6,764 nt of DNA from positions 1 through 6,764 of the forward strand of contig CANQCQ010000050.1 of the NCBI GenBank assembly GCA_947589725.1, given 5' to 3'. The translations under genes were made by a program, and so were the position numbers. Of this stretch, positions 2,181 through 5,856 are shown one piece after another (the first letter of the stretch is position 1; every line of letters begins with the position of its first letter). This stretch comes from an uncultured Bacilli bacterium (GTDB lineage: Bacteria; Bacillota_I; Bacilli_A; RF39; UBA660). The notes beneath the pieces are model-generated. The model ran no database searches. It saw only the letters and a program-made list of their open reading frames with translations, and had not been told where the DNA came from.

Positions 2181-3056
2181 TTATGAATTTTTTATTTGAC
2201 TCATAACTTCATCAGCAAAGTTTTCTTGTTTCTTTTCAATTCCTTCACCAACAGCAAATCTTGTCATAGAAACAATTTCTCCACCATTATTTTTAACATA
2301 ATCTTTTACTGATAATCCTGAATCTTTAATAAATGTTTGTTCTTCTAAGCAAACTTCTTTATAAAATTTATTAAGTCTTCCTACAACCATTTTTTCTGCT
2401 ATTTCTTCAGGTTTTCCTTCAGCCATTACTTGTTCTTTAATTACTTTTGATTCTCTCTCAAGAACATCAGCAGGTACACCTTCTCTATTTAAAGAAGTAG
2501 GATTCATTGCAGCTGTTTGCATAGCAACATCTTTGGCAACTTCTTCATTAGCTCCTTTTAATACGATAATAGCTCCAATTTTTCCACCTAAATGTTTGTA
2601 AGTACCAAATACTTCATCATCATTCTTAGTTACTTTTTCAAATCTTCTAAAACTAATTTTTTCACCAATTTTTGCCACTAAAGCGATTAGTTTATCATTA
2701 ACTGTTTCAGATCCATCTTTTATAGCTAAAGCTTCATCTAAAGTAGTTACATTATTTTCTAATACTTTATCAACTATATAATCAACAAAATTAGTAAATT
2801 CTTGGTTTTTAGCAACAAAGTCTGTTTCACTATTAACTTCTACCATTACAGCAGTATTACCAGCAACTTTTATTTGACAAACACCTTCAGCAGCTATTCT
2901 TGATTCTTTTTTTGCAGCTTTAGCAATACCTTTTTCTCTTAACCAATCAATTGATTTATCAATATCACCATCATTAGCTTCTAGTGCCTTTTTACAATCC
3001 ATCATTCCAGCACCAGTTCTCTCTCTTAATTCTTTAACATCTGTAATTTTATACAT
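2181..3056 (-). CDS. tsf: Elongation factor Ts (EF-Ts)
   Basis: EF-Ts is the guanine nucleotide exchange factor for EF-Tu, releasing GDP so that EF-Tu can bind GTP and aminoacyl-tRNA in the cytoplasm. The 291-aa product has the usual full length. The N-terminal UBA-like domain (about residues 1-55) includes LRERTGAGMMDCKKAL and the DWLREKGI segment. The TDFVAKN motif that contacts EF-Tu is intact at residues 78-84. The rest corresponds to the core dimerisation-type domains, with HLGGKIG and a full C-terminus ending in KNS. The ATG at 3054-3056 is preceded by a strong AAGGAGGAG site. rpsB and tsf are adjacent as in most bacteria, but a hairpin terminator and a possible weak promoter lie in the 115-nt gap, so tsf may be expressed partly on its own. 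Confidence 0.98.
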   Translation of the reverse strand: MYKITDVKELRERTGAGMMDCKKALEANDGDIDKSIDWLREKGIAKAAKKESRIAAEGVCQIKVAGNTAVMVEVNSETDFVAKNQEFTNFVDYIVDKVLENNVTTLDEALAIKDGSETVNDKLIALVAKIGEKISFRRFEKVTKNDDEVFGTYKHLGGKIGAIIVLKGANEEVAKDVAMQTAAMNPTSLNREGVPADVLERESKVIKEQVMAEGKPEEIAEKMVVGRLNKFYKEVCLEEQTFIKDSGLSVKDYVKNNGGEIVSMTRFAVGEGIEKKQENFADEVMSQIKNS

Positions 3057-3171: not shown

Positions 3172-4182
3172 TTATTTAGTTAATGCTTCAATAATATCAG
3201 CTTTTTTCATCGAAGAAGTTAAAGTAATATTTTTACTTGCAGCAATAGTCTTTAATTCAGCAACTGTTTTCTTTGAATAATCAACAGTTTCTTCTTTAAC
3301 TTCTTTTGCTTTCTTAGTTTCCTTCTTTTCTTTCTTTTCTACTTTTTCTTCTTCTTTTTTAGTTATTTTAACATCTTCCATAGATGGTTGTACTTTTTCT
3401 TCTTCTACTCCAGTTTTTACTTCTTCTTTCTTAGTAGAAACTTTTTTATCAATTTTTTCATTTTTAACTTTGTCTTCTTCTGTAATATAATCAATTACTT
3501 CATTTCCATTTACTTCTGCTATTGCATTAGTTAAAGCTCCAATTAATACTTTTACAGATCTAACAGCATCATCATTTCCAGGAATTACATAATCAACAAC
3601 ATCTGGATCACAGTTTGTGTCAACAACACCAAATACAGGTATTCCTAAAATATGAGCTTCTTTTATTGCAATTTCTTCTTTACGAGGATCTACAATAACC
3701 ATAGCTTGAGGTAATCTTTTCATTTCACGAATACCTCTTAAGTTTTTATTTAACTTATCATATTCTTTTCTTATTTGAATAACTTCTTTTTTAGGTAGTG
3801 CTTCAAAAGTACCATCTTTTTCCATATTTTCAATTTCTTCCATTCTTCTAATTCTTGAACGGATAGTTTTGAAATTAGTTAAAGTTCCACCTAACCATCT
3901 TTCATTTACAAAATAGTTATTTGTTCTTAAAGCATTTTCTTCTGCAGCTTCTTGAGCTTGTTTCTTAGTTCCTACAAATAAAACTTTTCCACCAGCTTCA
4001 GCAATTTCTTTCATAGCAGAATATGCTTCTTCTATTTTCTTAACTGTTTTTTGTAAATCTATAATATAAATATCATCTCTTGTAGTATAGATGAATTCCT
4101 TCATTTTAGGATTCCATCTTCTTTTTTGATGTCCAAAATGAACACCAGCTTCTAATAAATAATTCATTGATATAACTGTCAT
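3172..4182 (-). CDS. rpsB: Ribosomal protein S2 with a C-terminal Rho_N/SAP-like extension, 336 aa
   Basis: S2 is a late-assembling protein of the 30S subunit. Residues 1 to about 228 are a normal bacterial S2: [14 protein letters not shown] near the start, [29 protein letters not shown], the [11 protein letters not shown] signature at 94-104, and VVDTNCDPD with IPGNDDA near 186-206. The family usually ends at 230-260 residues. Here a linker of about 60 residues (234-297), very rich in Lys and Glu, is followed by a compact 39-residue domain (298-336) with TVAELK and [10 protein letters not shown]. This resembles Rho_N or SAP nucleic-acid-binding modules and closely matches the tail of the neighbouring L20. 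The start at 4180-4182 has AAAGGAGA 7 nt upstream and gives the usual MTVISM N-terminus. The gene begins 89 nt after rplT with no clear promoter or terminator between, so it probably continues the infC transcript. Confidence 0.97.
3175..3291 (-). repeat. Paralogous tail domain, copy in rpsB (S2 residues 298-336)
   Basis: This stretch encodes the [11 protein letters not shown]...[14 protein letters not shown] domain ending S2. Apart from one additional residue in the loop it aligns end to end with the tail of L20. The copies share a 17-nt identical run (3251-3267 here) and shorter runs such as CTTTTTTCAT and GAATAATCAAC on the plus strand. The pattern of two short helices around a loop, with conserved VAEL and KKxxIIEAL, resembles Rho_N/SAP modules. 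Confidence 0.8.
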
Positions 4183-4271
4183 TTTATTTTCTCCTTTGTT
4201 TTTATCTTCTATTAACTTCCAAAATTAATCACTCAAATTTAAGCACTAGATTAATCAATCCATTAATATGT

Positions 4272-4868
4272 TTATTTTTCTAAAGCTTCTATTATTTCAA
4301 CTTTTTTCATTCCAGTAACATTGATTTTCTTTTTAGCTGCAACTTCTTTTAATTCAGCAACTGTCATTTTAGAATAATCAACTTTTTCTTCTTTTGTTTT
4401 TTCTACTTTTTTTGTAGTAGTTTCTTTCTTAGTTGTTGTTTTAGAACTTTTTTCTTTACTAGTTCCAATTGTTACTTCTTTTGTATTAACTTCTTTTGCT
4501 TTCTTTATATTTCCACTTTTTCCATCTTTAGCTACTTTAACTAATTCAGCAAATGCTTTTGGATCATTAATAGCGATTTCAGATAACATTTTTCTGTTAA
4601 CTTCAACTCCTGCTTTATTTAATCCTTCAATAAATCTTGAATAACTGATGTCATTCATTCTACAAGCTGCATTAATTCTTGTAATCCAAAGTTTTCTAAA
4701 GTCTCTCTTCTTTTGTTTTCTATCTCTAAAAGCATATTGTCCAGAATGCATTAATTGTTCTTTTGCTGATTTATATAGTCTATGCTTACTACCAAAATAA
4801 CCTTTAGCAGATTTTAATACTTTTTTATGACGAGCTTTTGTAACTGCTCCATTTTTAACTCTTGCCAT
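4272..4868 (-). CDS. rplT: Ribosomal protein L20 with a C-terminal Rho_N/SAP-like extension, 198 aa
   Basis: L20 binds 23S rRNA early in 50S assembly and, in Firmicutes and E. coli, also represses its own operon. Residues 1 to about 116 are a normal L20: ARVKNG start, [38 protein letters not shown] (the family signature, about 46-70), SYSRFIEGL and [11 protein letters not shown]. Most L20 proteins stop near 115-120 residues. Here a Lys/Thr/Glu-rich linker (about 117-161) leads to a 37-residue domain (162-198) with TVAELKEVA and [10 protein letters not shown], matching Rho_N/SAP-type modules and the S2 tail. The ATG at 4866-4868 has AAGGAGGA just upstream, 29 nt after rpmI. The linker and tail are in frame with no stop or frameshift, so this is a true fusion. 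Binding of nucleic acid by the tail is inferred from resemblance only. Confidence 0.97.
4275..4385 (-). repeat. Paralogous tail domain, copy in rplT (L20 residues 162-198)
   Basis: This stretch encodes the domain ending L20: [15 protein letters not shown], then a short loop, then [13 protein letters not shown]. It is the counterpart of the S2 tail domain about 1.1 kb downstream in transcription. The identical 17-nt run lies at 4348-4364. The strongest protein identity is at VDYSK-TVAELK and MKK--IIEAL. One residue fewer than the S2 copy is present in the loop. Confidence 0.8.
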
Positions 4869-4897: not shown

Positions 4898-5083
4898 CTA
4901 GATTAAATTTTTTAATCTATTATGATCTGCCTTACTTAAAGTAGATCCCTTTCTACCTTTTCTATTATAACTAGTTGGTTTATCACCAGTGTTATGACGA
5001 GTTCCAGGTTTTCCTATTTTAATATCATTTTTACGTTTGTTAGCAACTTTTGCCCAACCTTTATGTGTCTTAATTTTTGGCAT
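4898..5083 (-). CDS. rpmI: Ribosomal protein L35
   Basis: L35 is a small basic protein of the 50S subunit. The 61-aa product has the family's MPKIKTHKGWAK start, an Arg/Lys-rich middle with a GKPGTRHNTGDK stretch, and a RKGRKGSTLSKAD segment followed by RLKNLI. It is slightly short against the usual 64-66 residues, ending without the extra C-terminal residues seen in many homologues. The ATG at 5081-5083 is preceded by AGGAGGA at 7 nt. It lies between infC (18 nt away) and rplT (29 nt away), the standard infC-rpmI-rplT order, which supports the call for so short a protein. Confidence 0.96.
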   Translation of the reverse strand: MPKIKTHKGWAKVANKRKNDIKIGKPGTRHNTGDKPTSYNRKGRKGSTLSKADHNRLKNLI

Positions 5084-5101
5084 ATCTAATTCCTCCTACT
5101 T

Positions 5102-5632
5102 TTATTTGTCTTTTCTTGGTACCAATAACATAGTCATTGTCTTACCATCTAATTTAGGTTTTTGATCTATATCCGCATAATCTTTAACTCTGTCTGCAAA
5201 ACGCTCAAGAACTTCTTTACCCAATTCAGTATGAGCCATTTGACGTCCTTTAAAACGAATTGAAAGTTTGATTCTATCACCTTTTTGTAGGTATTTAGTG
5301 GCATTTCTAAGTTTAGTTTCAAAATCACCTACATCAATTACAGGTGATAATCTGAATTCCTTCAACTCAGACATATTTGCTTTTTGTCTTTTTAATGCTT
5401 CCTTTTCTTTTTTTTGTTTTTCATAACGAAATTTATTGTAATCCATTACCTTACAAACAGGTGGATTAGCATTTGGACTTATTAAAACTAAATCCAAAGA
5501 AGCATATGTAGCAAGCGTCAAAGCATCTTGCAATGTTTTAACTCCTACTTGTTCTCCATTAGGACCAATCACTAATACCTCACGAGCTTTGATTTGATCA
5601 TTAATCAATAAGCCATTCTTATTGTTTGCGAT
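5102..5632 (-). CDS. infC: Translation initiation factor IF-3, probable AUC start
   Basis: IF-3 binds the 30S subunit, prevents premature 50S joining and checks the start codon and initiator tRNA. The product is 176 aa from the chosen start. The N-domain (about 1-75) has LLINDQIKAREV, and the IF-3 signature KVMDYNKFRYEKQKK is at 61-75. A Lys/Glu-rich linker helix follows, then the C-domain with FRLSPVID, KLRNATKYLQKGD and IRFKGRQMAH. The longest open frame begins with GTG at 5681-5683, but that codon lies inside the leader terminator, so it is not the start. An in-frame ATG at 5645-5647 has no ribosome binding site upstream. The strong GGAGGTG at 5639-5645 instead sits 6 nt before an AUC at 5630-5632, giving the N-terminal length expected of IF-3. 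Non-AUG infC starts are known (AUU in E. coli) and let IF-3 limit its own synthesis. Confidence 0.96.
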   Translation of the reverse strand: MANNKNGLLINDQIKAREVLVIGPNGEQVGVKTLQDALTLATYASLDLVLISPNANPPVCKVMDYNKFRYEKQKKEKEALKRQKANMSELKEFRLSPVIDVGDFETKLRNATKYLQKGDRIKLSIRFKGRQMAHTELGKEVLERFADRVKDYADIDQKPKLDGKTMTMLLVPRKDK

Positions 5633-5645
5633 ACCTAACACCTCC
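5630..5645 (-). promoter_or_regulatory. infC: infC ribosome binding site that fixes an AUC start codon
   Basis: GGAGGTG (5639-5645) is a 7-nt match to the anti-Shine-Dalgarno sequence. Six nucleotides follow, then AUC (5630-5632), then an open frame into conserved IF-3 sequence. The only nearby ATG overlaps this site's own first G and so cannot be served by it. IF-3 rejects non-AUG starts, so the AUC would make infC translation self-limiting. Confidence 0.75.
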
Positions 5646-5651
5646 ATAATT

Positions 5652-5683
5652 AAGAAAAAGCGGATATAAACAATTATATCCAC
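5652..5683 (-). terminator. Leader terminator (attenuator) upstream of infC
   Basis: On the minus strand GTGGATATAA (5674-5683) pairs with TTATATCCGC (5660-5669) over 10 bp, one of them G-U, with a 4-nt TTGT loop. TTTTTCTT follows directly. It lies between the promoter and the infC ribosome binding site, so it must be conditional. An upstream segment can pair with its 5' arm instead (see the leader entry). Confidence 0.85.
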
Positions 5684-5786
5684 TCTTTTTCAAAAACCAT
5701 TAGAAAAAATTTCCACATTTGGCATTTGACCCATCGCTATTCGCAAGATCGGGTGGATATAAAATCTCTTTCCTTTTTTCTCGACT
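5652..5786 (-). promoter_or_regulatory. L20-type autoregulatory leader of infC-rpmI-rplT(-rpsB)
   Basis: The leader runs from the predicted transcription start (about 5786) to the terminator U-tract. Three segments make a switch on the minus strand: TTATATCCAC (5753-5762), GTGGATATAA (5674-5683) and TTATATCCGC (5660-5669). The first and third differ by one base and compete for the second, forming an antiterminator or the terminator. Directly after segment 1, CCC/GGG closes an irregular hairpin (about 5732-5755) with further AUC/GAU and GC/GC pairs, a bulged G, a bulged UU and a GAAUA loop, a candidate protein-binding element. In Bacillus subtilis L20 represses this operon by causing premature termination in the leader. 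The gene context and geometry fit that class (Rfam L20_leader), though I cannot align it to the family model here. The region also accounts for the roughly 220-nt gap between infC and glyS. Confidence 0.8.
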
Positions 5787-5792
5787 AGTAAT

Positions 5793-5821
5793 ATTATATG
5801 TATCTAATCCCTAGTTGTCAA
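5793..5821 (-). promoter_or_regulatory. Consensus sigma-A promoter of the infC operon
   Basis: TTGACA (5816-5821) and TATAAT (5793-5798) are both perfect and separated by exactly 17 bp. Transcription should start near 5786 and enter the attenuator leader. It is by far the best promoter in the window, lies 36 nt past the glyS stop, and fits strong expression of ribosomal genes held in check by downstream attenuation. Confidence 0.9.
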
Positions 5822-5856
5822 TAATTTTATTATATTTTTTTAGTTTTTTTACTTTA

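Follow-up and report, generated by a model that had tools for sequence, protein, structure and literature searches.

A SAP/Rho_N-like module at the C-terminus of ribosomal proteins S2 and L20, and often of FtsH, in uncultured gut bacteria

Why should two adjacent genes, coding for ribosomal proteins of different subunits, both end in the same small domain? The question is raised by contig CANQCQ010000050.1 of an uncultured Bacilli bacterium (assembly GCA_947589725.1), analysed here over a stretch of 6,764 nucleotides (the window), in which the genes for L20 (rplT) and S2 (rpsB) follow each other. Comparison with related sequences indicates that, in uncultured gut bacteria, one protein of each subunit, and often also the protease FtsH, ends in this domain, which looks like an interchangeable tether. 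A preliminary description, made from the letters of the window, had taken both proteins for ordinary ribosomal proteins prolonged by long charged linkers and a common domain. Open reading frames and Pfam agree with it, the core matches spanning the whole, or nearly the whole, of the Ribosomal_S2 and Ribosomal_L20 profiles. In both S2 and L20 an ordinary ribosomal core is followed by a charged linker and then by a single module of about 37 residues. The corresponding features are listed below, with the evidence in brackets; pLDDT is the predicted local distance difference test score.

3172-4182, minus strand: S2 (rpsB) open reading frame, 336 amino acids (open reading frame list)
3508..4182, minus strand: S2 core, residues 1-225 (Pfam Ribosomal_S2 over residues 9-223, 329.9 bits; NCBIfam rpsB_bact, 335.5 bits)
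3289..3507, minus strand: S2 linker, residues 226-298, K/E-rich (sequence; pLDDT <50 over residues 253-299)
3175..3288, minus strand: S2 C-terminal SAP/Rho_N-like module, residues 299-336 (Rho_N above cut-off; pLDDT 83-85 over residues 301-336, two helices)
4272-4868, minus strand: L20 (rplT) open reading frame, 198 amino acids (open reading frame list)
4524..4868, minus strand: L20 core, residues 1-115 (Pfam Ribosomal_L20 over residues 3-109, 162.2 bits)
4386..4523, minus strand: L20 linker, residues 116-161, K/T/E-rich (sequence)
4275..4385, minus strand: L20 C-terminal SAP/Rho_N-like module, residues 162-198 (SAP above cut-off; model of residues 155-198, mean pLDDT 82.7)

The two tails are identical at 28 of 41 positions (68%; E 2e-15 for a single comparison). 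A resemblance to Rho_N, SAP and HeH/LEM had been proposed, and its first two parts stand. Pfam Rho_N (PF07498, cut-off 24.9 bits) matches residues 303-336 of full-length S2 with 28.6 bits and the S2 tail alone with 32.8; the L20 tail alone reaches 27.0, full-length L20 falling slightly under with 23.5. SAP (PF02037, cut-off 23.9) matches residues 164-197 of full-length L20 with 25.9 bits and the L20 tail alone with 29.8, and the S2 tail alone stays below with 18.8. The HeH/LEM part fell away, since all scores lie under the cut-off of PF12949 (28.9): 20.0 for S2, 24.8 for its tail alone and 14.4 for the L20 tail alone. A PDB profile search with the module returned Ku70 SAP and Rho; most solved structures related to it in sequence are SAP domains or N-termini of Rho. 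The predicted fold of the tails is a short helix-loop-helix, which superposes on the Tho1 SAP domain and the Rho N-terminus; in the S2 model the low-confidence linker is predicted to be disordered and the module folds separately.

The module thus resembles the N-terminal domain of Rho in sequence and predicted fold, but the window proteins carry neither the RNA-binding nor the ATPase domain of Rho, and the module sits here at the C-terminus of ribosomal proteins. With the SAP domains of Ku70 and Tho1 it shares the helix-loop-helix core and a conserved lysine before the second helix, whereas those carriers are eukaryotic nuclear proteins and these are bacterial ribosome and membrane proteins. 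The best-supported reading of sequence and model is that the tails belong to the small helical nucleic-acid-binding modules of SAP/Rho_N type, from which we infer that they may bind nucleic acid themselves.

In order to see how far the tails extend, two tail-region searches were made, which gave 1158 and 779 proteins at E <= 0.01; the best 120 of each were examined. Because these searches, and the relatives fetched, give many further carriers, the tails are neither a chance occurrence nor a quirk of assembly. The top L20 match by E-value (L001) is 81% identical to the window L20. Among 80 relatives fetched with L20, a set biased by its selection for similarity to tailed L20, the module is found on 72 of 80 L20 and on all 62 complete S2 proteins. 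The other eight L20 (L047, L048, L049, L061, L065, L069, L072 and L073) retain a K/T-rich linker; seven of these loci also contain S2, in every case with its module. The related metagenome-assembled genomes are labelled uncultured Bacilli, Erysipelotrichaceae, Tenericutes and similar, and the fetched relatives include one Candidatus Faecimonas (Bacilli incertae sedis).

Three wider samples were also considered. In the order of genome G001, which we take to be probably GTDB order RF39, 116 of 117 genomes show a Rho_N match at E <= 0.01: three matches in 66, two in 32, one in 13, four in 5 and none in 1. The two or three matches seen in 98 genomes lie, where identified, on L20, S2 and the FtsH C-terminus. 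In each of G001-G010 one match falls on a frame of L20 size, a second on a frame of S2 size and a third on a frame of 656-669 amino acids, with a weak fourth in G008. In the class sample the module is present in 75 of 139 genomes. A tail was counted there when the open frame with the module match was as long as the L20 or S2 frame of that genome; 74 of the 75 genomes were entered (G127, E 0.006, was left out), and the count covers matches down to about E 0.003. So counted, the module is on L20 in 54 of 134 genomes, on S2 in 45 of 136 and on both in 34, and its presence on both subunits, as first described for the window, is a feature of many genomes. Over the 132 genomes with both genes, tails occur together in 34, on L20 only in 18, on S2 only in 10 and on neither in 70 (Fisher p 3.5e-10, kinship ignored). 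The 17 members of the order within this sample have it on L20 (13/16), on S2 (16/16) and in an FtsH-size frame (15/17). In the phylum sample, 82 of 295 genomes carry the module at E <= 1e-4. Small genomes, presumably phytoplasma-like, also have L20 proteins in which a long linker leads to this module (L269-L272).

Part of this is already known. The NCBIfam model PRK14537 (NF011109), an L20/unknown domain fusion protein, likewise joins an L20 core to a C-terminal module; the window tails align to its positions 183-225 (L20) and 185-225 (S2), the window L20 missing the cut-off of 187 with 172.8, and 35 of 139 class-sample genomes have a match over cut-off. That model is limited to L20 and leaves the domain unnamed, whereas here the domain is SAP/Rho_N-like and found also on S2 and, in relatives, on FtsH. 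Two other known models, 50S_L20_sunset (NF051450) and 30S_S2_sunset (NF051451), are variants named for an added domain on the same pair of proteins. The window proteins lie far under their cut-offs (L20 145.6 against 375, S2 288.7 against 710) and match in core and linker only; the isolated tails remain without a match to either model up to E 10. At E 1e-50, NF051450 is found in none of the 295 phylum-sample genomes and, among 14 controls, only in Corynebacterium glutamicum, below cut-off. Identity of the module with the sunset domain is ruled out on these scores, and, judged by sequence, the sunset variants look like a separate, parallel fusion to the same protein pair. Searches of the open-access literature found no description of the SAP/Rho_N identity of the tails, of the set S2, L20 and FtsH, or of tail switching; the available text of PMC4014445 and PMC7301438 holds no mention of L20, Rho or FtsH and nothing on these tails.

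The relation between the two tails was analyzed within the fetched loci. S2 is present in 63 of the 80, always immediately downstream of L20 and on its strand (63/63), and absent from 17, in 9 of which about 6 kb downstream are covered. In the 56 genomes with both tails, window included, the S2 tail is of its own type (TL..., with a GYS-like loop) in 33 and of the L20 type (TV...) in 23. All 23 L20-type S2 tails have a loop matching that of L20 in the same genome (15 without GY, 8 with GY). By parsimony, six changes of S2 tail type and four of loop are needed on the tree of the cores, a quick tree with only 11 of 53 inner branches starred. As read from these sequences, the S2 tail has changed to the L20 type on several occasions. 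One group of L20-type S2, on a starred branch, consists of the window and L008, and the close pattern shared by S2 and L20 in the window is due to this membership.

Within single genomes, S2 and L20 tail codons are sometimes near identical at identical residues (31/34 in L017, 36/41 in L046) and in other genomes are not. In 28 pairs of nearest relatives, the two tails of a genome are slightly more alike in DNA than tails taken from the two different genomes (19 up, 8 down, p 0.007), and barely more so in amino acids (13 up, 7 down, p 0.05). When S2-L20 pairing was permuted, 0 of 5000 permutations reached the observed mean; kinship is ignored in this test, so that we rely on the weaker sister-pair test and the tree. 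Taken together, the data suggest repeated gene conversion between the S2 and L20 tails, although co-evolution of both tails to a common ligand would leave a similar picture. Switching and own-genome matching also suggest that the modules are interchangeable and have one shared ligand.

The module had been described on the L20/S2 pair; both carriers hold, and it is not limited to these two proteins. Six of the 656-669 amino acid frames of G001-G010 read as FtsH, one being confirmed by NCBIfam with 803.8 bits against a cut-off of 600. In the best 30 of 115 FtsH matches in the order (L144-L173), 25 have the module at their C-terminus by a match of E <= 0.01 to profile A1, which itself includes seven of the 30 sequences; L165 is weak (0.084), and L151, L154, L166 and L172 have none. 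The FtsH module of this order is attached via a short acidic linker. Outside the order, no module-bearing frame of FtsH size (650-680 amino acids) was found in the class sample, where no direct FtsH search was made. Two sets of frames considered as FtsH were rejected. The strong matches in frames of 619 and 625 amino acids (G052, G057) belong to S2, tabulated frame lengths not always being single open reading frames; the weak matches in frames of 638 and 642 amino acids (G205, G211) belong to a different protein with membrane-like stretches. The latter protein (L321:1292-3178) has 628 amino acids, and its SAP-like matches are internal.

Further carriers were found among relatives: an S1 protein with the same C-terminal module (L197:28-1605), two OppF-like ATPases ending in it (L229, L281), several proteins, likewise ending in it, for which a simple hydropathy rule predicts membrane segments (for example L204, L210, L215 and L234), and a sigma-70 factor with two Rho_N-like modules near its N-terminus (L214:1974-3863). 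Because of these carriers the module is, as far as sequence tells, portable in these lineages and not a ribosome-only device.

What, then, would the tails do? The reading we prefer, tentatively, is a flexible tether. The tails of S2 and L20 would act as low-affinity, sequence-nonspecific grappling hooks on long flexible linkers that keep the ribosome close to nucleic acid; the probable ligand is RNA on polysomes, mRNA or another kind, and DNA is less likely. They would be mutually exchangeable since both would grip the same kind of ligand, and the module on FtsH and other membrane proteins would keep membrane machinery near that ligand. Nucleic-acid-binding kin, lysines near fixed in an alignment of 118 S2 and L20 tails, long flexible linkers and interchangeability make this the best supported reading; binding as such, RNA over DNA, tethering and any FtsH-ribosome link are the parts that we infer.

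Three observations leave room for a protein partner: the charge of the module is near neutral, several carriers have predicted membrane segments, and interchangeability fits one shared protein partner too. The module might then be a protein-docking domain through which S2, L20 and FtsH all bind one common partner, be it RNA polymerase, a Nus factor, a chaperone or a further copy of the module. This is a serious competitor, which we regard as unlikely; the solved-structure kin, mainly SAP domains and Rho N-termini, and the near-fixed lysines speak for nucleic acid.

The tails could instead replace functions lost in a reduced genome, with S2, as the S1 dock, letting tailed ribosomes catch mRNA themselves. 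Rho_RNA_bind (PF07497) was not detected at E <= 0.001 in any of the 117 genomes of the order, with 9 of 14 controls positive; a Rho_N module therefore need not mean Rho biology here, and an origin from the lineage's own Rho was discarded. S1 was scored by a best match of E <= 1e-28 to NF005208, which 73 of 139 class genomes pass (the curated cut-off, passed by only 9 of 139, says little about S1 absence). None of the 117 genomes shows a multi-domain S1 by this value, an absence by threshold: the best match has 87.6 bits (E 3.8e-25), and the matches listed cover only short parts of their frames, most of which have 700-790 amino acids. According to the available text of PMC10931766, S1 binding in E. 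coli requires S2, its docking site, and S2 may protect the Shine-Dalgarno helix. These points favour replacement of lost functions. Outside the order, however, S1 is retained in all 29 S2-tailed genomes of the class sample, and none of 49 genomes without S1 has an S2 tail; G125, where S1 is doubtful (broken frame), was counted as without S1, and G022, G148 and G159 (no S2 match) were excluded from the S2 count. The S2 tail is therefore no simple S1 substitute, and S1 substitution as its cause is not supported outside the order: the tail does not arise in response to the loss of S1, which it may at most have permitted. With L20 moreover on the other subunit, this explanation is improbable.

Flexible basic tails are common on ribosomal proteins, and the modules may aid folding of rRNA during assembly of their own subunit. 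That S2 tails repeatedly become L20-like would be odd if each bound an rRNA site of its own subunit, and FtsH carries the module too, so that we give this possibility equally little weight. Least probable is that the tails are tolerated, spreading modules of little function: they are lost from 8 of 80 L20 while the linker stays and occur on unrelated proteins, but several residues are near invariant across the 118 tails, every complete S2 among the fetched relatives (62 of 62) keeps the module, and it is found in 75 of 139 class-sample genomes.

The tether reading can be carried further. S2, L20 and FtsH might all be marked by one interchangeable module so that they share a ligand, which would bring polysomes together with membrane quality control where Rho and S1 are undetected; gene conversion between the neighbouring genes for S2 and L20 would keep the tails matched. 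In this full form it is a long shot.

The surroundings of the two genes are as follows. On the minus strand the gene order of the window is glyS (partial), infC, rpmI, rplT, rpsB, tsf, an open reading frame without known function, frr and two more of that kind. S2, L20, EF-Ts and IF-3 were named by Pfam; glyS, L35 (rpmI) and frr are taken to be such by their sequence. The immediate neighbours are:

4898..5683, minus strand: rpmI (L35) and infC (IF-3), directly upstream in the same gene run (open reading frames; Pfam IF3_N and IF3_C for infC)
2181..3056, minus strand: tsf (EF-Ts), directly downstream (Pfam EF_TS, 246.6 bits)

Three minus-strand frames in 38-1090 and 1744-2106 (171, 172 and 120 amino acids) had no Pfam match above cut-off. 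A scan of the window with Rfam at gathering threshold gave no match, and no known L20 leader was found in 5684-5856, upstream of infC.

As it appears from these comparisons, the outer face of the bacterial ribosome can be refitted with a portable domain, which in an uncultured gut lineage sits on both subunits and also on a membrane protease. With S2 tails changing to the L20 type repeatedly, two different ribosomal proteins seem to have evolved in concert. Should the module bind RNA, these bacteria would offer a natural test of what extra tethers do to the capture of mRNA, the packing of polysomes and the contact of ribosomes with the membrane in a setting where S1 and Rho are not found.
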